From an uncultured Anaerolineae bacterium (lineage in GTDB: Bacteria > Chloroflexota > Anaerolineae > Anaerolineales > Villigracilaceae): DNA of 44,725 nucleotides. This document shows, piece by piece, positions 31,783 to 44,023 of the stretch. The notes beneath the pieces are model-generated. The model was not told the origin of the DNA and did no database searches. It saw only the letters and a program-made list of their open reading frames with translations. The stretch covers positions 1 through 44,725 of the forward strand of contig CAIJPN010000173.1 in NCBI GenBank assembly GCA_903822545.1. The letters run 5' to 3'. Positions within the stretch are counted from its first letter, which is position 1. The number at the start of each line of letters is the position of its first letter. A program made the translations under genes and the position numbers.

Positions 31783-32472
31783 ATGTCACGACATGCCCCG
31801 CAAGGCGCTGAAACCCGCCCCACCCATACAATCGAAGATTACTTGATGACCATGCACGTCATGGAGCGCGATCACGGGGAAATCATCGCCGCCCGTCTGG
31901 CCGAAATGATGGCGGTTGCCCCGGCGACAGTAGCCATGACCCTTAAACGGATGGAACGCGACAACTGGATCACCGGCACGGGACGAAAAGCTATTCACCT
32001 GACTGAAACCGGGCAGGCTGCTGCCCACTCTGTTACCCGTCGCCACATGCTGACCGAGTGGCTGCTGGTTAGCATCCTGAAAGTGCCGTTGCCCAATATC
32101 CACGATGAAGCGCATGGCATCGAGCACGCCATATCCCCGCAATTGGAAGAACGCATGCGTGCCATCCTGGGCGACCCGCAGGTCTGCCCGCACGGCAATC
32201 CCTTCCCTGGCTGCGAAAGCGTGGTCAGCAACTGGATTCCGCTGACTGAACTGGCCGTTGGCGAAACAATTACTATCCGGCGCATCCACGAGCTGGCTGA
32301 AGACAACCCGGAGTTGCTGAAATTCTTGATCGAAAATGGGATATGCCCGGGGGCGCAAGTTCATATTGTGGATATCCTGCCCTTTAACCAGACCCTGACT
32401 ATCGGTGTAGGCAAAAAAAACGTGACATTGGGTTTCCCGGCTGCGCGCTATATCTTTGCTGAAAAACCCTGA
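31783..32472 (+). CDS. DtxR/MntR family metal-dependent transcriptional regulator
   Basis: 229 residues. The winged helix is at about 15-75 (TIEDYLMTMHVMERDHGEIIAARLAEMMAVAPATVAMTLKRM). The dimer and metal-binding domain follows (HDEAHGIEHAISPQLEERM, with CPHGNPFPGC typical of the family), then a C-terminal FeoA/SH3-like domain (about 150-228). It probably represses the divergent FTR1 permease gene, and perhaps itself, when Fe(II) or Mn(II) is plentiful. The downstream ABC exporter begins 82 bases later and may share the transcript. Confidence 0.93.
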   Translation: MSRHAPQGAETRPTHTIEDYLMTMHVMERDHGEIIAARLAEMMAVAPATVAMTLKRMERDNWITGTGRKAIHLTETGQAAAHSVTRRHMLTEWLLVSILKVPLPNIHDEAHGIEHAISPQLEERMRAILGDPQVCPHGNPFPGCESVVSNWIPLTELAVGETITIRRIHELAEDNPELLKFLIENGICPGAQVHIVDILPFNQTLTIGVGKKNVTLGFPAARYIFAEKP

Positions 32473-32554
32473 ATTGCGCCTGTTTTTAGGGAGTGGACTT
32501 TGGATAATGGGAATATCTCTCAACTACCGGAAAAGGAATTCAAAGAAACCTTCC

Positions 32555-34321
32555 ATGAAACCCTTCAAACTAATCTTTCATTATGCCCGCAACTATACCT
32601 TTGTCCTAACCGTCACCGCCCTGAGCATGCTGGCGCTGGTGGGTGTGCAACTGCTTATCCCGTGGATCGTTAGGACGCTGGTGGCGGCAGTTACTGCGCC
32701 AGGCGCGACGCTGGCGGCCATGGGATTGGTCACGCAACTAACCGTTATCGTGCTGGTAGTTTACATTGCACGCGCCGGGCTGCAATTCCTGCGCTCATAC
32801 CTGGCACACGTGGCCGGGTGGGGCGTGGTGGCCGATGTGCGCAAGTACATTTATGAACACATGCAGCGCCTGTCATTGCGTTTTTACGAAGACAAACAGG
32901 TCGGGCAGCTCATGTCTAACGTGGTCAACGATACCGACCTGTTTGAGCAATTAATCTCACATGCCGTGCCAGATGTGGTGGTTAACGTCATCACATTTGT
33001 GGCCGTTACCGCTGTCTTGCTCGGCCTGAACTGGCAACTAACCCTGTTGAGCACCATTCCCATCCCACTGGTGCTGGTTTCGCTGCGGATTTACGCTAAA
33101 TTTGTGCGCCCGGCTTTTCGCCAGCGCCAGAAAGACCTGGGCGATTTGAATGCCACGCTCAACGATAACCTGTCGGGTATTCGTGAGATCAAGGCCTTTA
33201 CACGTGAAGGTGACGAAGCCCGCCGCATTCACCAGCGCATCGACAATTACCGCCAATCGCTGTTGAACGCGCTCAAGCTGATGGCAACCTTCCAGCCGTT
33301 TGTGGAATTTACCTCGTCGCTGGGGATGTTGATTGTGATTTACTTTGGCGGACAGTTGGCCCTGCAAGGAATCCTGCCGGTGGCTGACCTTGTGGCTTTT
33401 TTCCTGTACCTGGAGATGTTCTACACCCCGGTGCGCAACCTGAGCGGCGCCTGGGAGTCAGTCCAAAGCTCCCTGGCCGGTGCCGACCGGGTTGCGGATT
33501 TAATGGCAGAAGGTGAAGAGCCGCACAATGCCCCGGGAGCGCTGGCAATTTCTGGCCGGGTAAAGGGTGACATCCGTTTTGAAAAGGTTAGCTTTGAATA
33601 TGTGCCCGGTGTTCCGGTGCTGGAAGACATTTCCCTTGAAATCCGGGCGCAGAGTGTGGTGGCACTGGTCGGCCCAACGGGGGTTGGCAAATCGACGCTG
33701 GTCAGCCTGATCCCGCGTTTTTACGATGCCAGTGCGGGCAAAATCTTGCTGGATGGCCGCCCGTTGCAGGAGTATATGCTCCACAGCCTGCGCCACCAGA
33801 TCAGCATTGTGTTGCAAGATGTCTTCCTGTTTTATGGCACGGTGCGCGAGAATATCCTGTTTGGCCGCCCCGATGCCAGCGAGGCTGACCTGTACGCGGC
33901 GGCGAAGATGGCGAATGCGCACCAGTTCATCATGGAACTGCCAGATGGCTATGACACGTTGATCGGCGAGCGCGGGGTCAAGCTTTCGGGTGGGCAAAAA
34001 CAGCGTATTTCGATTGCGCGGGCGCTGCTGAAAGATGCGCCCATCCTGATTTTGGATGAAGCCACCTCGTCGGTGGATACTGAGACCGAGTTGCTGATCC
34101 AGCAGGCGCTAGAGCGGCTGATGAAGGGTCGCACAACGATCATTATTGCCCACCGCCTTTCCACCATTCGCAATGCCGATAAGATCGTGGTGCTGGAAGA
34201 GAAATCCATCCGCGAGATGGGCACGCATGAGGAGTTGATGCGCCATCAAGACGGTCTGTATCGCAAGCTGAACACCATCCAGCGCCAGTTGGAGCCGGTG
34301 ATTACCGCCAGCTTGAATTAA
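32555..34321 (+). CDS. ABC exporter, fused membrane and ATPase domains (MsbA/BmrA-like half-transporter)
   Basis: 588 residues from the ATG at 32555; upstream in-frame extensions overlap the regulator gene. Six membrane segments fill residues 1-310, including the coupling region YEHMQRLSLRFYEDKQVGQL. The ATPase domain carries Walker A GPTGVGKST (about 373-381), signature LSGGQKQR, Walker B ILILDEATSSVD and the H-loop IIIAHRLST, all canonical, so a homodimer is expected. The substrate is unknown; location after an iron regulator allows a siderophore or metal link but does not show it. Confidence 0.93.
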   Translation: MKPFKLIFHYARNYTFVLTVTALSMLALVGVQLLIPWIVRTLVAAVTAPGATLAAMGLVTQLTVIVLVVYIARAGLQFLRSYLAHVAGWGVVADVRKYIYEHMQRLSLRFYEDKQVGQLMSNVVNDTDLFEQLISHAVPDVVVNVITFVAVTAVLLGLNWQLTLLSTIPIPLVLVSLRIYAKFVRPAFRQRQKDLGDLNATLNDNLSGIREIKAFTREGDEARRIHQRIDNYRQSLLNALKLMATFQPFVEFTSSLGMLIVIYFGGQLALQGILPVADLVAFFLYLEMFYTPVRNLSGAWESVQSSLAGADRVADLMAEGEEPHNAPGALAISGRVKGDIRFEKVSFEYVPGVPVLEDISLEIRAQSVVALVGPTGVGKSTLVSLIPRFYDASAGKILLDGRPLQEYMLHSLRHQISIVLQDVFLFYGTVRENILFGRPDASEADLYAAAKMANAHQFIMELPDGYDTLIGERGVKLSGGQKQRISIARALLKDAPILILDEATSSVDTETELLIQQALERLMKGRTTIIIAHRLSTIRNADKIVVLEEKSIREMGTHEELMRHQDGLYRKLNTIQRQLEPVITASLN

Positions 34322-34456: not shown

Positions 34457-36880
34457 ATGGAAGCCAGCAGCGATTACCAGACTCTCATTCGCGCGGCCCT
34501 GGATGGGTTCTGGATGTTGGATGACCAGGCGCGCTTCCTGGATGTGAATGATGCTTATTGTGAAATGATCGGTTATTCACGCCAGGAATTGTTGAACATG
34601 AGCATTGCGGATGTGGAGGCTACCGAAACACCTTCTGATGTTGCCCGGCACATTCAAGATTTGCAGGCCAGGGGGAGTGGGCGTTTTGAAACCAGTCATC
34701 GCACCCGGGATGGACGAACAGTATATTTGGAAGTCAGCGCCCATTGTGATATTGCCAAAAATCGCATCTTTGTTTTTTTGCGTGATATAACCGCGCGTAA
34801 GGCCGCCGATAAGATCTTGCATCAGCGTACCCATGAACTGAGCGAGCGTGTTAAAGAGTTGCGCTGCCTGTTGGATTTATCCACCCTGATGGAACGGGAC
34901 GATCTAACCACCGATGAAGTATTGCGCCAGGCCGTGGAATTGCTCCCGCCTGCCTGGCAATATCCTGACCTGGCGGCTGCCCAACTGATCCTGCCCCAAC
35001 ATTGTTATGCCACGGCCAATTACAGGCCGTCACCCATCAGCATGGTTTCCAACATCGATATGGCCGGGGTTGCCCTGGGCCAGATCAGCCTGGTTTACCT
35101 CGAACCCCCGCCAGGCTCAGATGCTTCCCCTTTCTTGCCCGAAGAGCGCCTCCTGCTGGATGCAGTGGGGCAACGCCTGGCGGGTTTCATCCAGCGCCAG
35201 CGTGCCGAAAAAGCACTGATGCTGCGCGAAATGAGCCTCAATTCACTGCTGGATTTGAGCCAGCGCGCCTCCACGCTGCGCGAGCGCGACATCATCCAAC
35301 TGGCGCTGGAAGAAGTGGAGCGCCTGACCTCCAGCAATATCGGCTACCTGCACTTTGTCAACCCCGACCAGAGCAGTATCCACCTCTTCACCTGGTCGCA
35401 GAACACCCTGCGGAATTGTACAGTGGCACACGATTCACATTATCCCATCACACAGGCCGGGGTTTGGGCTGATTCAGCGCGTTTGAAACGCCCGGTGCTG
35501 CATAACGACTACCAGAACGCACCCGATAAAAAGGGCTATCCCGAAGGCCATGCCCATCTCGTCCGCCATTTGAGTGTACCCGTTGTGGAAGCTGGCGCAG
35601 TGCGGCTGATTATGGGGGTGGGCAACAAACTTTCTGATTATGACGATGCCGACATCCGCCAGGTGATGCTCACCGCTGAAAATCTGTGGCGCATCTTGCG
35701 GCGCAAGCGCGCCGAAGATGAAGCCCGGCGCGAAGCGGAGCGCGTAGCCACACTCGCGCGTGTCGCCGCGCGCCTCAATGCCAATCTTGACCTGCCGGCT
35801 GTGCTAAAAACTGTCTGCGAAGAAGCTGCGAACGCCCTGGGATTCCCGGCTGCCAGCGTTTGCTTGCAAAATGGCAGCAGTTCCAGCCCGTTTTGCCATA
35901 CTACATCCATCTCTACACAACCTGTTGTAAACCAGGCAGAATTCCAGGGTGAACTGCTCGAGTTAATGGGCACCGGTGAGTGGGACGACGGCATCTTTGT
36001 CCTGCCGCCCGAAGCTCCGCGCCGTTGGGTTGGGTCACTGATTGCAGCTCGTTTAGCGCATGCTGACCAGAACTTGGGCGTGCTGGCAGTTTATACCTTT
36101 GGCTCATCGCATACCTGGATGGGAGATGACCTGGCCCTGTTGCGTGGGCTGGCAAACCAGGCCGCCCAGGCCATTATCAACGCGCGTTTGTTTACCGAAG
36201 TCTCCATCAGCCAGGAAAAACTACAAATCTTGTCGCGCCGGTTGGTGGAAGTGCAGGAAGCCGAACGCCGCCACATTGCCCGGGAACTGCATGACGAGGT
36301 CGGGCAGGTGCTTACAGCCGTCAAAATCAACCTGCAAACCCTGCGGCGTCACCAGGCATTTACCAACTACGCTCCGCGCCTGGATGAAAACATCGACAGT
36401 GTCCAGCGCGCCCTCGATCAAGTGCGCAGCCTTTCGCTTGACCTGCGCCCATCCATCCTCGACGATCTGGGGTTGAGCGCTGCCCTGGAATGGTATACCC
36501 AGCGCCTGGCCCAGGTGGCCGGTCTTAAACCAAGCCTCAACTTGCCCGAAAACGCCCCACGCTGGCAGCCAGAAATCGAGATTACCTGTTTCCGGGTTGC
36601 CCAGGAAGCCCTGACCAACATTTTGCGCCATGCCAAAGCCCGCCGCATCTGGGTCGATTTACAACACACCCCGGTTGAATTGCGCCTGATCGTTCGAGAT
36701 GATGGCCAGGGATTCGAGCCTTTCAATGCGCGTATGCGTGCTACCCAATCTGGAACCAGCGTCGGCCTGTTGAGTATGGCAGAGCGGGTAGCGCTGGCGG
36801 GTGGGCATCTGGAGATTGAGTCCTCGCCCGGAAACGGCACCAGCATCCAGGTTGTCTTCAACACACCCGTAGCGCAATAA
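34457..36880 (+). CDS. Cytoplasmic PAS-GAF sensor histidine kinase (HisKA_3, NarL/DegS type)
   Basis: 807 residues with no membrane segment, so it senses an internal signal. Order of domains: PAS (about 5-120, LIRAALDGFWMLDDQARFLDVNDAYCEM); a GAF-like region (about 145-255); a second GAF (about 265-415, IGYLHFVNPDQSSIHLFTWS); a third GAF (about 435-580); then the HisKA_3 dimerisation helices with phospho-acceptor His612 in ARELHDEVGQVL; and a HATPase domain (CFRVAQEALTNILRHAKA N-box, DDGQGFEP G1-box, GLLSMAERVALAGG, SSPGNGTSI). GGAGG precedes the ATG. Kinases of this type normally phosphorylate NarL-like regulators. The next gene, 38 bases on, begins with exactly such a receiver but joined to GlgC, and is the likely partner. 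Confidence 0.93.
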   Translation: MEASSDYQTLIRAALDGFWMLDDQARFLDVNDAYCEMIGYSRQELLNMSIADVEATETPSDVARHIQDLQARGSGRFETSHRTRDGRTVYLEVSAHCDIAKNRIFVFLRDITARKAADKILHQRTHELSERVKELRCLLDLSTLMERDDLTTDEVLRQAVELLPPAWQYPDLAAAQLILPQHCYATANYRPSPISMVSNIDMAGVALGQISLVYLEPPPGSDASPFLPEERLLLDAVGQRLAGFIQRQRAEKALMLREMSLNSLLDLSQRASTLRERDIIQLALEEVERLTSSNIGYLHFVNPDQSSIHLFTWSQNTLRNCTVAHDSHYPITQAGVWADSARLKRPVLHNDYQNAPDKKGYPEGHAHLVRHLSVPVVEAGAVRLIMGVGNKLSDYDDADIRQVMLTAENLWRILRRKRAEDEARREAERVATLARVAARLNANLDLPAVLKTVCEEAANALGFPAASVCLQNGSSSSPFCHTTSISTQPVVNQAEFQGELLELMGTGEWDDGIFVLPPEAPRRWVGSLIAARLAHADQNLGVLAVYTFGSSHTWMGDDLALLRGLANQAAQAIINARLFTEVSISQEKLQILSRRLVEVQEAERRHIARELHDEVGQVLTAVKINLQTLRRHQAFTNYAPRLDENIDSVQRALDQVRSLSLDLRPSILDDLGLSAALEWYTQRLAQVAGLKPSLNLPENAPRWQPEIEITCFRVAQEALTNILRHAKARRIWVDLQHTPVELRLIVRDDGQGFEPFNARMRATQSGTSVGLLSMAERVALAGGHLEIESSPGNGTSIQVVFNTPVAQ

Positions 36881-36918
36881 AAAATCACGCTAACAGGCAC
36901 CAGTGAACGAGGTGAGCT

Positions 36919-38625
36919 ATGCCAGCACGTATCCTTCTTGTAGATGACAGCCTCCACTTTATCGAATCAGCCGAACGCTTTTTATCAGAAGAATTGGGCG
37001 TCAATGTGGTGGGTAGTGCGCTTTCGGGGATCGAGGCGATTGATCAGGTGATGCGCCTGCGCCCAGACCTGGTGCTCATGGATGTTGCCATGCCGGGAAT
37101 GGATGGGCTGGAGGCCACCCACAAAATCAAAGCCATGCCCAATGCGCCCCTGGTCATCATCCTGACGTTGTACGACACCCCCAAATATCGCGAAGCTGCC
37201 CACCAGGCCGGGGCCGATGGATTCATCCCCAAAGCTGATTTTGGCGAGCAACTCCTGCCACTGATTTACTCCCTGCTGCCCAAACTGGCCTATCCAGAAC
37301 AGGCGCTGCCGCCCCTGATATCGAAATTACATACCCGTCCCCTGGGAGATTTCCCCAGACCGGTTTCTAACCACCAAAATGTGTGGATGTCTTCCCTCCA
37401 GACCCGCGCCGTCATCCTGGCCGGTGGAGAGGGTGCCCGGCTGGGGGTTTTAACCGCGCGCCGGGCCAAACCCGCTGTACCATTTGCTGGAAAATACCGC
37501 ATCATCGACTTTGCCCTCTCCAACTGCGTCAATTCTGGGCTGTTTGATGTGGTGTTATTGACCCAATACCGTCCGCACTCACTCAACGAACATATCGGCG
37601 TGGGCCGTCCCTGGGACCTGGATCGCAGCTTTACCGGTGGGGTGCGCCTGCTGCACCCCTACAAAGACCGCTCCAGCACCGATTGGTATTCGGGTACTGC
37701 CGATGCCGTTTTGCAAAACCTGAGCTTTATCAAAGACGAACGCCCCGACCTGGTGCTGATTCTGGCGGGTGATCACATCTACCAGATGAATTACGGGCCG
37801 ATGCTGGCTTTTCACGTGGAGCACGAAGCTGATGTGACCGTTGCGACCATCGTCGTCAAGCCAGAAGAAGCTTCACGCTTCGGGATATTGGGCATCAATG
37901 AAGCTGATCGCCGCGTGTTGACCTTCACCGAAAAACCTGAGGTACCATCCGGAACGCTGGCATCCATGGGTATCTATGTTTTTAACCTGAAAACGCTTGA
38001 AAAATACCTGCATGATGACCATAACCAGCCAAAATCAACCCATGATTTTGGCAGAGATATTTTGCCCCAACTGGTGCAGACCGGTCAGCGTGTTTTTGCC
38101 TACCCATATAAAGGCTATTGGATGGATGTCGGCACAACGGATTCTTACTGGCGCGCACACATGGATTTGCTGCGCCAGCCTCCTGCTTTGAATTTGAATG
38201 AACGCTCGTGGATTATCCATACTCGTTCGGAAGAACGCCCGCCCATGTTTATTGACAGCGGGGCGCTGGCCCAATCTTGCCTGATTACAGATGGAGTGGT
38301 GATCGAGTCGGGAGCGGTGGTGGAAAATTCAGTGCTGGCTCCAGGTGTGTATATTGGCCCCAATGCGGTTGTGCGTGAATCAATCTTGTTTACCGACAGT
38401 CGCATAGAAGCGGGCGCGCGCATCGAACGTGCCATTATCGACAAAAATGTGATCGTTGGCCAAAATGCCAGGATTGGCGCGATCGATGATTCAGATGGGA
38501 AGCCTGGCGTCACTACTATTGGCAAAAATGTCCAAATAGCGGCGGGGCTCAAGGTTGGGCGCGGCATTTCCATCAGCCCCGATGTTTACCTTGAGCCAGA
38601 GCCACTACTGTGGCCCTCGCAATAA
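36919..38625 (+). CDS. glgC: Response-regulator receiver domain fused to glucose-1-phosphate adenylyltransferase (REC-GlgC)
   Basis: One open frame of 568 residues. Residues 1-122 are a NarL-type receiver with all phosphorylation residues: acidic Asp9/Asp10, phospho-acceptor Asp55 ([13 protein letters not shown]), Thr83 and Lys105 (FIPKAD). After a ~38-residue linker, residues 162-568 are a full-length ADP-glucose pyrophosphorylase: [32 protein letters not shown] (Lys184 matches E. coli activator-site Lys39), GDHIY with Asp285 (catalytic Asp142 in E. coli), FTEKP with Lys339 (glucose-1-phosphate-binding Lys195), and a C-terminal left-handed beta-helix ([18 protein letters not shown]). GlgC makes ADP-glucose for glycogen. 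The DNA-binding output usual after such a receiver is absent. An internal ATG at 37387 could also start a free GlgC, but has no clear ribosome site. Phosphorylation-controlled glycogen synthesis is inferred. Confidence 0.93.
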
Positions 38626-38667
38626 ACGCAGCTTGCCGGGAATTCCCATCCGATGTGGGGGCTGGTC

Positions 38668-38676
38668 TGGTACAAT
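38668..38676 (+). promoter_or_regulatory. Possible extended -10 promoter of the FAD oxidoreductase gene
   Basis: TG, one base, TACAAT (38671-38676). The -35 region is poor. Confidence 0.35.
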
Positions 38677-38790
38677 TTCTTAAACCAGGATCCAGCCTGG
38701 GCCAGGCACGAACACGGCTCTTGGAAATGTGGCGCGCACCGGCAACCGGCATCCTGATCCAATACACAAAGTCACGCAGGAGCAACCAAA

Positions 38791-39957
38791 ATGTCCAACA
38801 CAGCAGATGTCATTATTATTGGCGGTGGGGTGCAGGGCGCGAGCCTGGCGTTCCACCTTTCCAGGCGCGGGACGAAAGTCATTGTGCTTGAGAAGCAGTT
38901 TGTCGCGGCGGGGGCTACGGGACGCTCGAGCGGCCTGGTGCGAATGCACTATGATACCGAGGTCGATTCACGCTTTGCCTGGGTGTCTTTCCAGTATTTT
39001 CGCAACTGGAAGGAACTGGTAGGCGGGAATACGAACTGTGGTTTCACCCGCACAGGGTTCTTACAGATTGTGGGATCCAAGCATGTCGAGGCCTTGAAAG
39101 TTAACGTCAAGATGCACCAGCAAATTGGGATACCCTCGCTGGTGGTGACGGCGGATGATGTTAAGCGCATTTGTCCACATCTTGCCACGGACGATATTGA
39201 AGTGGCAGCTTATGAGCCGGAATCGGGCTATGCCATGCCGAGCGATACTGCCGCGGCGCTGATGACGGTGGCGCGTGAGAATGGAACCCGTCTGGTGCAG
39301 GATTGCACCGTAACCGGTATCCAGGTGACGGGTGGCAAGGTCACGGGCGTGGAAACTTCTCAGGGGCTGTTTTCTGCCCCGGTGGTAGTCAATGCCGCGG
39401 GGCCGTGGGCCAATTCCATCAATAAGATGGTGGGTTTTGACCTGCCTTTGACCACCTGGCGGCACGACACGATGTTTGTGGTGCGCCCACCCGAAGTGGG
39501 GCCATCTCATCCGGCGGTGATCGATTTTGGGCATGAGATGTATTTCCGCCCGGAAGGCCCGCTGACGCTGGTTGGCCTGGAAGATGGCAACCCGCTGGGC
39601 GAATCGCCCGATACCGATACTGACCACGCCCAAAAAGGATTTGTGGAACGCGCCATCGACCGAATTTGCCTGCGTATGCCGGTGATGGAAAAAGGCGCCC
39701 TGCACAGCGCCCACGGCGGCTATGATGGGATTACACCTGACCAGCACCCGGTGCTTGGCGCGGCTGGCCCAGACGGTTTCTACCTGGATTGTGGTCACAG
39801 TGGCACTGGTTTCAAGACGGCTCCCGCGGTAGGGCTGTGCATGTCTGAGTTGATCCTGGATGGCGCTTCTAAAACGGTGAATATTTCGTCACTGACGCCC
39901 ATGCGCTTTGCCGATGGGCGGCCCATCAAAGGCAACTACGAGAATATCTGGCGCTAA
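38791..39957 (+). CDS. FAD-dependent oxidoreductase of the DAO / sarcosine oxidase beta-like family
   Basis: 388 residues with a CAGGAG site upstream. The N-terminal ADP-binding motif is VIIIGGGVQGASLAFHLSRRG with the Glu of VIVLEKQ at the end of strand 2. GATGRSSGLVRMHYD is typical of the sarcosine/dimethylglycine oxidase group, and the C-terminal FAD motif is GPDGFYLDCGHSGTGFKTAP. Family members oxidise N-methyl or secondary amino acids, or glycerol-3-phosphate-like substrates. No alpha subunit or folate-binding partner is next to it, so the substrate is open. It probably has its own promoter and is not part of the kinase/GlgC unit. Confidence 0.9.
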   Translation: MSNTADVIIIGGGVQGASLAFHLSRRGTKVIVLEKQFVAAGATGRSSGLVRMHYDTEVDSRFAWVSFQYFRNWKELVGGNTNCGFTRTGFLQIVGSKHVEALKVNVKMHQQIGIPSLVVTADDVKRICPHLATDDIEVAAYEPESGYAMPSDTAAALMTVARENGTRLVQDCTVTGIQVTGGKVTGVETSQGLFSAPVVVNAAGPWANSINKMVGFDLPLTTWRHDTMFVVRPPEVGPSHPAVIDFGHEMYFRPEGPLTLVGLEDGNPLGESPDTDTDHAQKGFVERAIDRICLRMPVMEKGALHSAHGGYDGITPDQHPVLGAAGPDGFYLDCGHSGTGFKTAPAVGLCMSELILDGASKTVNISSLTPMRFADGRPIKGNYENIWR

Positions 39958-40718: not shown

Positions 40719-42041
40719 ATGCAATACCTACGCTACCACCTCCGCCGCGACGATCTTTCGCCGTTTGATATTCTCGATGCCAGTTCCCCGCGCTTTTTCT
40801 GGGCCGAGCCGGGCAGCGAGGATGCCTGGGCTGGCACCGGAGCCGAAGCCCGGTTGACCGGCTCGGGGGCGGGAAAATTCCAGCAAATTAAACGGGATGC
40901 GGCGGAAGTGTTGAGTCAAGTCGTTGACCTGAATCCCGCTCCCGTGCCGAATCGTCTCTTTGGCGGATTCTCTTTCACCCCGACTCTGGATTCCGTTGAC
41001 TGGAGCGGGTTCACCGCTGCCGAGTTCATCCTGCCGCGCCTGCAAGTGACCCGTCTCGATGGCGAAACCTGGCTGACAATTTGCCGCCGCGCCGGTGCGG
41101 GTGTGACCCTCGAGACCCTGGCCGCTGAAGCTCGCGCCGTTCGCCCGGTGGATGTCTCCGCCCCGGCGGGGCTATCGCACCTGTGCGACGCCACCAGCTA
41201 CGACGAGTGGGCCGCGATGGTGACGGGCGGCGTGCACGAAATCCGCAACGAGAAGATGTGCAAAGTGGTGCTGGCGCGCGCCCGCGCGGCGCAGTTTGAC
41301 GGCGCGCTGAACCCGCTGCACCCGCTGGTGACGCTCAACCAGAATTACCCGAACACCTTCCGCTTTCTGTTCGCGCCGTATGGGCAAAAAACGTTTTTAG
41401 GCGCGACGCCTGAACTGCTGGCGCGGGTCGAGCGCGGCGAGTTGTTCAGCGTGGCGCTGGCCGGTTCGGTTGGGCGCGGCAAAACCCCCGCCGAAGCCGA
41501 AGCGCTTGCCGCGGAACTGCTCTCCAGCACCAAAGACCGTCACGAACACGCCCTGGTGGTGGGCGCCATCCGTCACGGGCTGGAGCCGCTGACCGCGCAG
41601 CTTGACATCCCCAACGTGCCGGGAATCCGGCGGCTGGCGAACATCCAGCACCTGGAGACGCCCATCCGCGGCAGGTTGGCGGCGGGCTATGGCGCGCTGG
41701 ACGTGGTGGCGGCGCTGCATCCCACCCCGGCGCTGGGCGGCGTGCCGCGCCAGCCCGCGCTGGAGTTTATCGCTGCCAACGAGCCAACGGCGCGCGGCTG
41801 GTACGCCGCCCCCATCGGCTGGCTGGACGCGAATGGTGATGGCACATTTGCCGTGGCGATCCGCTCGGCGCTGCTGGAAGGGGATCGGGCGCTGCTGTAT
41901 GCGGGCGCGGGCATCGTCGATGGCTCGGACCCGGCCAAAGAGTGGCAGGAGACCGAACTCAAGTTCAAGCCGCTGATGGATGCGTTGACGGGCAGCCCGG
42001 TGGCTCAATATGCGCGGACGATGAGTCTTGCGCACGTTTAA
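40719..42041 (+). CDS. menF: Isochorismate synthase MenF
   Basis: 440 residues; converts chorismate to isochorismate, the first step of menaquinone synthesis. The chorismate-binding core is in the C-terminal ~260 residues: NYPNTFRFLFAPYGQKTFLG, ATPELLARVERGELFSVALA (with GS next), SSTKDRHEHALVV, RRLANIQHLETPIRG, LHPTPALGGVPRQPAL and the final YAGAGIVDGSDPAKEWQETE. These are the conserved motifs of isochorismate synthases. The downstream menD and menB support MenF over a salicylate or enterobactin enzyme. GGGAG lies upstream of the ATG. Confidence 0.96.
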   Translation: MQYLRYHLRRDDLSPFDILDASSPRFFWAEPGSEDAWAGTGAEARLTGSGAGKFQQIKRDAAEVLSQVVDLNPAPVPNRLFGGFSFTPTLDSVDWSGFTAAEFILPRLQVTRLDGETWLTICRRAGAGVTLETLAAEARAVRPVDVSAPAGLSHLCDATSYDEWAAMVTGGVHEIRNEKMCKVVLARARAAQFDGALNPLHPLVTLNQNYPNTFRFLFAPYGQKTFLGATPELLARVERGELFSVALAGSVGRGKTPAEAEALAAELLSSTKDRHEHALVVGAIRHGLEPLTAQLDIPNVPGIRRLANIQHLETPIRGRLAAGYGALDVVAALHPTPALGGVPRQPALEFIAANEPTARGWYAAPIGWLDANGDGTFAVAIRSALLEGDRALLYAGAGIVDGSDPAKEWQETELKFKPLMDALTGSPVAQYARTMSLAHV

Positions 42042-42054
42042 TTCAAAACCTGGA

Positions 42055-42127
42055 CACGGATTACACGGAAAACGCGGATTTCCACGGATTTTTTAAGATT
42101 TTTCCGTGTTCGTCCGTGTAATCCGTG
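42055..42127. repeat. Inverted repeat CACGGATTACACGGA in the menF-menD gap
   Basis: Perfect 15-base arms (42055-42069 and 42113-42127) with further ACGGATT/CCGTG words between. It fills most of the 107-base gap; I see no Shine-Dalgarno before the menD ATG. It looks like a dispersed intergenic repeat. Confidence 0.65.
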
Positions 42128-42148
42128 AAATCCGTGTACTGATTTTTT

Positions 42149-44023
42149 ATGACTTACCCCAACCGAACCATTCTCTGGACAAGTATTTTCGTCGATGAAC
42201 TCATCCGCGCGGGGGTGACGGATGCGGTCATCGCGCCAGGTTCGCGCTCGACTCCGCTGACGTTTGCCTTCGCGGAACGGAGCGAAATCCGCGTCCACTC
42301 GCTGCTGGATGAGCGCGGGGCGGCGTACTTTGCGCTGGGTCTCGCGCAGACCACCGGGCGCCCGGCAGCGCTGGTGTGCACATCCGGCACGGCGGCGGCC
42401 AACTTTTTCCCGGCGATTGTGGAAGCCAGCCTGAGCGAAATCCCGATGCTGGTGCTGACTGCTGACCGCCCGGCGGAACTGTACGACAGCGGCTCGAACC
42501 AGGTGATTGACCAGCTCAAACTCTACGGCAGCTATCCGCGCTGGTTTATGCAGATGCCCATCCCCGAAGCCAACCCGTCGGCGCACCTGCTGGCGTCGCT
42601 GCGGACGATTGCGGACCGCGCGGTGGCCGTTTCGCTTGGCTTGGATGGCGCGCCGGGGCCGGTGCATCTCAATTTCCCGTTCCGCAAGCCGCTTGAGCCG
42701 GTTTTTGTGGATGGGGATGTCGCGCCCGGGTTTGATTTCCCGGGCCGGGCGGATGGCGGCCCCTGGGTGCGGATTCAGCGCCCGCGCCCTGAGATTGATC
42801 TTGTGACTCTACTAGAACTCCGGGCGCGAATACATCTCGCTGAAACAGGTCTCATCGTCTGTGGGCCGCGCTGCCCCGGCGACGATTTCTCGTCCGCGCT
42901 GATGCGGCTGGCCGAGGCGACAGGATTCCCGGTGCTGGCAGACCCGCTCTCGGGGGTCAGGTTTGCAGGTAAAGTCCGCCCGATCGGGCTGCTTGAGATG
43001 GGTCAGGCTGATGACATCTTCAATATACCCGAGCGATTGTACGATGCGCTCATCTCGGGAGGCTATGACACCTTCCTGTCGTCTGACGCGATTGTGAAGG
43101 CTTTGCCCGCGCCGGAACTCATCTTGCGTTTTGGCGATTTGCCCACATCCACAGCTTTGATGAGCTACCTTGCCAAATCAAAGGCATACCAGGTAGCCAT
43201 AAGCGAATCGGCGCGCTGGATGGATGATATGTCAGTGGTGAGCGAGGTGATTCGAGGGGATGCGGCGGAGGTGTGTCGTCGCATCTTGCCATCACCCCCC
43301 GCCCTCCCCCGAGGGGGGAGGGGGCTTCTCTCCCTTCTCCCCCCGGGAGAAGGGCCGGGGATGAGGGTGTGGGCGCAAGCCGAACAAGCCGCCTGGCAGG
43401 CGATTGATGAGGCTGGCGTCGATTTTGAAGGCGCAGCGCTGGCGGAAGTGGTCAATGCGATGCCCGAAGATTCAATTTTGTATATCGCCAATAGCCTGCC
43501 GGTGCGGCATTTGGATCAGTTTGCGCGGCCCAATGGCAAGAAAATCCGCGTGATTGGCAATCGCGGGGCGAGCGGGATCGATGGGACGATTTCGTCGGCG
43601 TTGGGGGCGGCGAAGGGGACGGACAGGCCCTTGGTGCTGGTAACGGGCGATTTGTCGCTGTATCACGATTTGAACGGGTTGATTGCGTTTAAACGGTGTG
43701 ATGTTCAGGCGACGATTGTCTTAGTCCATAACGATGGCGGCGGGATTTTCCACCGGCTGCCGGTGGCGCAGTTTGAGCCGCCGTTTACGCGGATGTTTGT
43801 CACGCCGCATGGGCTGGATTTTGCCCCGGCGGCGGAGATGTTCGGGCTGGAATTCCGCCGGTTAAACGGGATTCAGGCGCTGGGGGCGGAAGTATCCGCC
43901 GCGATACAGGCCAAAGGGCAGACCATGCTCGAGGTACGGACGGATTCGCCAGCGGGCGAAAAAGTCCGAATTTCCATCATAAAAAGAACCGAAGAAATTT
44001 TTAAGGAGATAAATCATGACTGA
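42149..44023 (+). CDS. menD: 2-succinyl-5-enolpyruvyl-6-hydroxy-3-cyclohexene-1-carboxylate synthase MenD
   Basis: 624 residues. ThDP-dependent enzyme that joins 2-oxoglutarate to isochorismate. N-terminal Pyr domain: [35 protein letters not shown] (catalytic Glu), [29 protein letters not shown]. The middle domain follows. The C-terminal PP domain has [19 protein letters not shown], the metal/ThDP motif [12 protein letters not shown] and [12 protein letters not shown], all MenD-typical. An insertion of about 28 residues (about 380-408, [13 protein letters not shown] to GEGPGMRV) comes from an in-frame GC-rich repeat, which makes the protein longer than usual. The last eight bases overlap menB. 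Confidence 0.96.
43289..43372. repeat. GC-rich double-hairpin repeat inserted in frame in menD
   Basis: Two perfect hairpins: CCCTCCCCC / GGGGGAGGG (43302-43310 with 43314-43322) and CCCTTCTCCC / GGGAGAAGGG (43332-43341 with 43345-43354). The frame stays open and codes a Pro/Gly-rich peptide unlike MenD. It looks like a mobile palindromic repeat that entered a surface loop. Confidence 0.75.
44003..44008 (+). promoter_or_regulatory. menB ribosome-binding site inside menD
   Basis: AAGGAG lies seven bases before the menB ATG and within the last codons of menD, which fixes the menB start and suggests translational coupling. Confidence 0.85.

Follow-up and report, generated by a model that had tools for sequence, protein, structure and literature searches.

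A receiver domain joined in frame to ADP-glucose pyrophosphorylase in an uncultured Anaerolineae bacterium: a possible response regulator with GlgC as its output

Response regulators with an enzymatic output are well established, REC-GGDEF proteins, CheB, and REC-PP2C proteins being examples, and bacterial ADP-glucose pyrophosphorylase (GlgC) is a textbook case of an enzyme controlled by metabolites. The excerpted text of a review of prokaryotic alpha-glucan enzymes likewise describes GlgC as controlled by metabolites, and the terms two-component and response regulator are absent from that excerpt (PMC11046441). In the excerpt of another study, the N-terminal region is reported to take part in regulating diverse ADP-glucose pyrophosphorylases, and R40 and R52 of Escherichia coli GlgC are described as essential for activation (PMC6773804). 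An initial reading of the DNA studied here, made from its letters alone and referred to below as the sequence-only reading, had stated that no GlgC controlled by a covalently joined receiver was known, and no paper describing such an architecture was found among the titles and abstract openings listed from the openly accessible literature.

The window analyzed here is a stretch of 44,725 nucleotides, and its forward strand carries at 36919-38625 a single open frame of 568 amino acids, in which a receiver domain is followed by GlgC (REC-GlgC). Pfam assigns Response_reg to residues 5-106 (82.9 bits against a cut-off of 30.2), NTP_transferase to residues 164-419 (218.1 bits against 21.2), and a GlmU-like hexapeptide domain to residues 450-527, while the GlgC part, residues 160-568 (37396-38622), also passes the curated NCBIfam cut-offs for TIGR02091 glgC (427.3 versus 424.9) and NF003670 (474 versus 470). 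In the receiver, residues 1-122 (36919-37284), the residues required for phosphorylation are all present: the acidic pair D9 and D10, the phospho-acceptor D55, T83, and K105. The codon of Asp55, the predicted phosphorylation site, lies at 37081-37083, and the residue is invariant in the four rows of the receiver alignment A1. The sequence-only reading, which had described an uninterrupted frame with an intact phospho-acceptor site and a complete GlgC, was therefore correct in its coordinates and residues. Since a Pfam scan found no LuxR helix-turn-helix C-terminal to the receiver in the fused protein, it is not of the NarL/FixJ type, and since the receiver frame runs on into GlgC, it is not a single-domain response regulator either. 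The domain and motif evidence for a receiver and a GlgC in one frame far exceeds chance, and we consider the fusion likely to be real.

The GlgC part appears to be that of an intact enzyme. When 28 GlgCs were aligned, giving 106 invariant columns, the only unique feature of the window protein was an inserted residue at position 329, whereas the other 27 rows showed from 0 to 4 unique departures each, and the fused GlgC matches every residue column that is invariant across the 27 orthologues. A decayed GlgC was considered on this basis and is unlikely. In the residue map derived from the alignment, which leaves R386 unmapped, R174, R182, R194, D285, K339, and D403 correspond to R32, R40, R52, D142, K195, and D276 of the E. 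coli enzyme, the last three of which we take to have catalytic or activator-site roles, and four E. coli positions are changed, namely K39 to R, R130 to D, R29 to E, and H46 to P. The fused GlgC does, however, sit on a long branch of the GlgC tree (0.67 versus a median of 0.24). An AlphaFold model built from six sequences has a mean pLDDT of 64.6 and a pTM of 0.43; the receiver is modeled well (pLDDT 74-94 over blocks of ten residues), residues 124-160 fall below 50, and the relative placement of receiver and GlgC is not given by the model. All of the 50 matches listed by Foldseek for the predicted structure are ADP-glucose pyrophosphorylases.

A sensor histidine kinase of 807 amino acids is encoded on the same strand at 34457-36880, preceded by the Shine-Dalgarno sequence GGAGGC, and its stop codon is separated from the start of the fused gene by 38 bases, just as the sequence-only reading had noted. 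Pfam recognizes in it PAS, two GAF, HisKA_3, and HATPase_c domains, and the motifs RELHDE (with H612), RVAQEALTN, RDDGQGF, and GLLSMAERV are present. Elsewhere in the window, a gene for a DtxR/MntR-like metal regulator overlaps by 17 bases the gene for an MsbA-like ABC exporter (31783-34321), and an isochorismate synthase-like gene lies downstream together with menD (40719-44023), the latter being matched in 13 of 60 relatives at 1e-60 or better.

The closest relatives of the fused receiver, with identities of 54-58%, were found in loci L036 and L037, both of which also encode a HisKA_3 kinase and, in a gene of its own, a REC-LuxR protein. When the profile of A1, whose four rows include the window's own, was searched in 400 genomes of the order, six further receivers scored at least 117 bits; five of them lie in open frames of 132-160 amino acids and the sixth, in genome G377, in one of 377, while below 117 bits receivers with and without further domains are intermixed. 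The gene order of kinase, LuxR domain, and A1-type receiver occurs in 7 of the 13 loci outside the window that were inspected, a count in which L080 and L081 hold rows of the profile itself and several loci are short or reach contig ends; the kinase belonging to L081, for example, falls beyond the edge of that short locus but is covered by L037, a longer stretch. In the other six loci, a LuxR domain and a receiver occur with no kinase match (L085) or neither kinase nor LuxR domain was found (five loci). A module consisting of a HisKA_3 kinase, a REC-LuxR protein, and a mostly single-domain receiver is thus recurrent in the order (L036:194-4316, L037:3224-8390, L083, L086, L087, L088, and L102). 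Two receiver relatives have extra C-terminal parts, a PAS domain over the cut-off in L087 and a GAF-like part below the curated cut-off in L081. Genome G039 has two module receivers one after the other, of which the latter bears a GAF-like tail; G377 has one with PAS domains. The fused gene suggests that outputs are acquired at the single-domain receivers of this clade. As judged from sequence, the receiver stems from a mostly single-domain, kinase-tied group and is not a NarL regulator that has shed its DNA-binding half. The expectation that such a receiver ought to drive a LuxR domain was consequently not borne out, because its closest relatives are mostly single-domain proteins and often stand third in the module. 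The genome of the window gives at least 145 receiver matches; the one that scores highest after the fused receiver shares 39% identity with it. A REC-LuxR neighbor, usual in the related modules, is missing beside the window's kinase, which makes the signaling partner of that kinase less certain.

Whether the frame is translated as one protein was considered from the junction. Between the two domains lies a predicted disordered linker of about 37 residues (123-159; 37285-37395), which contains an internal ATG at residue 157 (37387-37389). A Shine-Dalgarno-like sequence, CGAGGTG, is placed at 36908-36914 ahead of the fused gene and gives a duplex energy of -7.2 for the start at 36919, compared with 0 for the ATG at 37387 and -2.4 for a GTG at 37381. 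No match to a sigma-70-like promoter was found in the junction, nor any terminator-like site in 36600-38900, where shuffled sequences give 2.3. In a comparison of coding with intergenic triplets, the 36 codons of the linker scored -0.10 bits per codon, where the window genes have a mean of 0.26. A score no higher than that of the linker is found in 5.9% of 305 gene windows, and one no lower in 27.7% of 328 intergenic windows; a 36-codon open stretch arises by chance within intergenic sequence with a probability of 0.27. The linker, being weakly coding-like, appears little constrained, as after a recent join, and a linker both predicted to be disordered and weakly coding-like is to be expected if the fusion is young or its coupling loose. 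Nothing convincing was found that would make it the leftover of another gene.

The fusion seems to be rare. Searches with the fused protein covered its own genome together with 60 relatives, and also 400 genomes from the order (328 matched at 1e-30), 400 of the phylum (187 matched at 1e-60), and 396 of the class (45 matched at 1e-150). Among the matches listed from these approximately 1,100 distinct Chloroflexota genomes, a figure that reflects overlapping sets each including the window's own genome and in which only the matching genomes bear on recurrence, no second REC-GlgC was found, although a distant fusion scored through its GlgC alone could be missed. Twenty GlgC matches in long frames (6 from the order, 12 from the phylum, and 2 from the class) showed no receiver; the six were judged by their N-terminal extensions and by tblastn receiver matches over 90 bits, and the other 14 by phmmer, which gave no match, with the GlgC start located in 11 of the 12 and 1 of the 2. 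A scan of the genomes of 84,980 species, which detects close relatives only, likewise revealed no close relative of the receiver and linker, but only four receivers at 30-36% identity. The recurrence in related genomes that the sequence-only reading had proposed to look for was accordingly not seen, as no other listed match covers both domains. Absence from all close relatives, which it had named as a sign against the fusion, holds for the sampled set and does not extend to the genus, which consists of this one genome. With respect to the assembly, a draft of 237 contigs with an estimated contamination of 3.15%, three parts of the window were compared by tetranucleotide profile; they correlate at 0.91-0.96 with stretches of two further contigs from this genome and at no more than 0.80 with eight stretches of other genomes, of which only one is from the same family, so that a contaminant from a very near relative could go unnoticed. 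A contaminant contig is unlikely because the composition fits the genome's own contigs.

The nearest relatives of the fused GlgC are stand-alone GlgCs of families f3, f4, and f11 of the order, with 64-68% identity, followed by one at 63% from another order of the class. Loci that include glgC with a flank were retrieved from 30 genomes: malQ (GH77) is the next gene downstream in 27, glgA is the next upstream in 23, and both hold in 21; of the three genomes without malQ beside glgC, two end at a contig end, and Pfam confirmed glgA or GH77 in the three glgC loci that were scanned. The genome of the window possesses GlgA, and on its contig C74 (L116:4947-7907) glgA and malQ are direct neighbors; the gap of 60 bases that separates them holds no glgC. 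The fused GlgC is the only one of its lineage in this genome, where a second type is encoded on contig C114 (L040:6947-8245); this protein is over the TIGR02091 cut-off and nearest to the cyanobacterial-type NF002772 (512.1 versus a cut-off of 537), and the flanking genes scanned, including one for a P-type cation ATPase alongside, are unrelated to glycogen. Within the family, GlgCs about 40% identical to the fused one seem to occur more often than those of the fused lineage. In the GlgC tree, the fused GlgC falls outside a 19-row clade that contains all 10 rows of its own family (86/97), while the malQ of C74 has an own-family sequence as its partner, if with weak support (83/67), and lies outside the f3/f4/f11 clade (98/95). 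These placements are suggestive of a horizontal origin of the fused glgC and do not settle it; transfer and an old paralogue are both possible. Because the fused lineage was matched at 1e-150 or better in just 11 of 36 other genomes of the family, the empty slot between glgA and malQ may predate the fusion. Viral contigs yielded three relatives of GlgC and none of the receiver.

The reading we prefer, to which we assign a probability of roughly 0.45, is that REC-GlgC may act as a response regulator in which GlgC serves as the output and is tuned by phosphorylation of Asp55. A mostly stand-alone receiver gene, often placed behind those of a HisKA_3 kinase and a REC-LuxR protein, would have been joined in frame to glgC through a segment of about 37 codons. 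The PAS/GAF kinase would then phosphorylate Asp55, and the receiver, altered for instance in how it self-associates, would act via the linker on the N terminus of GlgC within the tetramer, so that ADP-glucose synthesis might be raised or lowered, the sign being either, on top of ordinary metabolite control, for which the key arginines are kept. Phospho-control would be favored by the full set of phosphorylation residues, by a receiver subfamily that appears tied to HisKA_3 kinases (7 of 13 loci) and by the retention of the putative activator-site counterparts R182 and R194 in an enzyme class whose N terminus is regulatory, as far as the excerpt of the study goes (PMC6773804). GlgC as the fused output is further favored by the glgA-malQ pair without glgC, the lack of a promoter or terminator match at the junction, a composition that fits the genome, the intactness of GlgC, and the PAS or GAF-like C-terminal parts of other receiver relatives. 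Counting against it are the lack of a second example among the listed matches, the predicted disorder and weakly coding-like character of the linker, the second GlgC in the genome, the kinase without its REC-LuxR neighbor, and a predicted structure that, with a pTM of 0.43, does not model a contact between receiver and GlgC. It might even be, though we put this forward only tentatively, that the kinase directly governs how fast glycogen is made by phosphorylating the built-in receiver of the enzyme, and that glgC was captured into an output-free receiver slot that is elsewhere filled by PAS or GAF-like parts.

Another possibility, which we regard as rather unlikely, is that the fusion is real but exerts no control: the receiver would remain the single-domain partner of the kinase, as a phosphate sink or a CheY-like messenger, and GlgC would be carried on its tail or localized by it with unchanged activity. 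The mostly single-domain nature of the closest receivers would agree with such an arrangement, as would the disordered, weakly coding-like linker, the conserved activator-site arginines, and the other GlgC of the genome, but the join at the regulatory N-terminal end of a glycogen enzyme, behind a kinase, is suggestive of more, and no glgC is left between glgA and malQ. It is also conceivable, if improbable, that two adjacent genes of one operon only appear as one because a receiver stop near residue 133 is masked by a sequencing or assembly error, namely a single-base indel, or by a mutation of very recent date. One indel at the junction could indeed create an apparent fusion, since a stop at 37316 in the +1 frame would end the receiver at about 132 amino acids, like its stand-alone relatives, and the fusion is found in no other listed genome while the assembly is a draft of 237 contigs. 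Against this, the stretch from 37200 to 37420 contains no homopolymer of 5 or more, the internal ATG has no Shine-Dalgarno sequence, and an alternative-frame stop that near is unsurprising by chance. A further, very improbable case is that GlgC is made chiefly from the ATG at 37387 and the long frame is of little consequence. This ATG lies within a few residues of the start position in stand-alone orthologues, and a missing Shine-Dalgarno sequence is not exceptional: 7 of the 27 window genes as called, some of whose starts are possibly miscalled, score 0, and the same holds for 6 of 16 orthologues, which are what remained of 21 surveyed loci after 5 without a readable start were dropped. The other 10 of the 16 orthologues, however, have one of -3.5 or stronger, the signals at 37387 and 37381 fall short of that at 36919, and the junction has no promoter-like match. 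Translation solely from the internal ATG, which the sequence-only reading had raised as grounds for rejecting the fusion, is disfavored by the lack of a Shine-Dalgarno sequence there, albeit a lack shared with those 7 window genes.

If GlgC is indeed the output of the receiver, cells could adjust carbon storage to an environmental signal with no need for new transcription, and a ready-made phospho-switchable GlgC would be at hand to probe how the N terminus governs the enzyme. With stand-alone bacterial GlgCs (TIGR02091; structures 5L6S from E. coli and 5W6J from A. tumefaciens), the fused protein has the catalytic domain and the beta-helix in common, and it adds 159 N-terminal residues made up of receiver and linker. 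The single-domain receivers of L036, L037, and L083 (54-58% identical), L086 (46%), and L088 (42%) stand on the same side of the kinase as the fused gene, but they end at about 130-150 amino acids, whereas the fused frame continues into GlgC, and a REC-LuxR gene lies between kinase and receiver in these five loci and is absent beside the fused gene. In Synechococcus, two-component signaling reaches glycogen storage through RpaA, as it would through REC-GlgC, but RpaA is a transcription factor; without it glycogen is low, yet neither expression nor in vitro activity of the synthesis enzymes is significantly reduced, according to the excerpt of that study (PMC5400509). REC-GlgC, so far unique and known from one draft genome, looks like a real fusion, one that would give a known kind of signaling protein a new output. 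As in REC-GGDEF proteins, CheB, and REC-PP2C proteins, the receiver is covalently joined to a catalytic domain, but the outputs of those proteins are signaling enzymes, whereas that of REC-GlgC would be an enzyme of storage metabolism.
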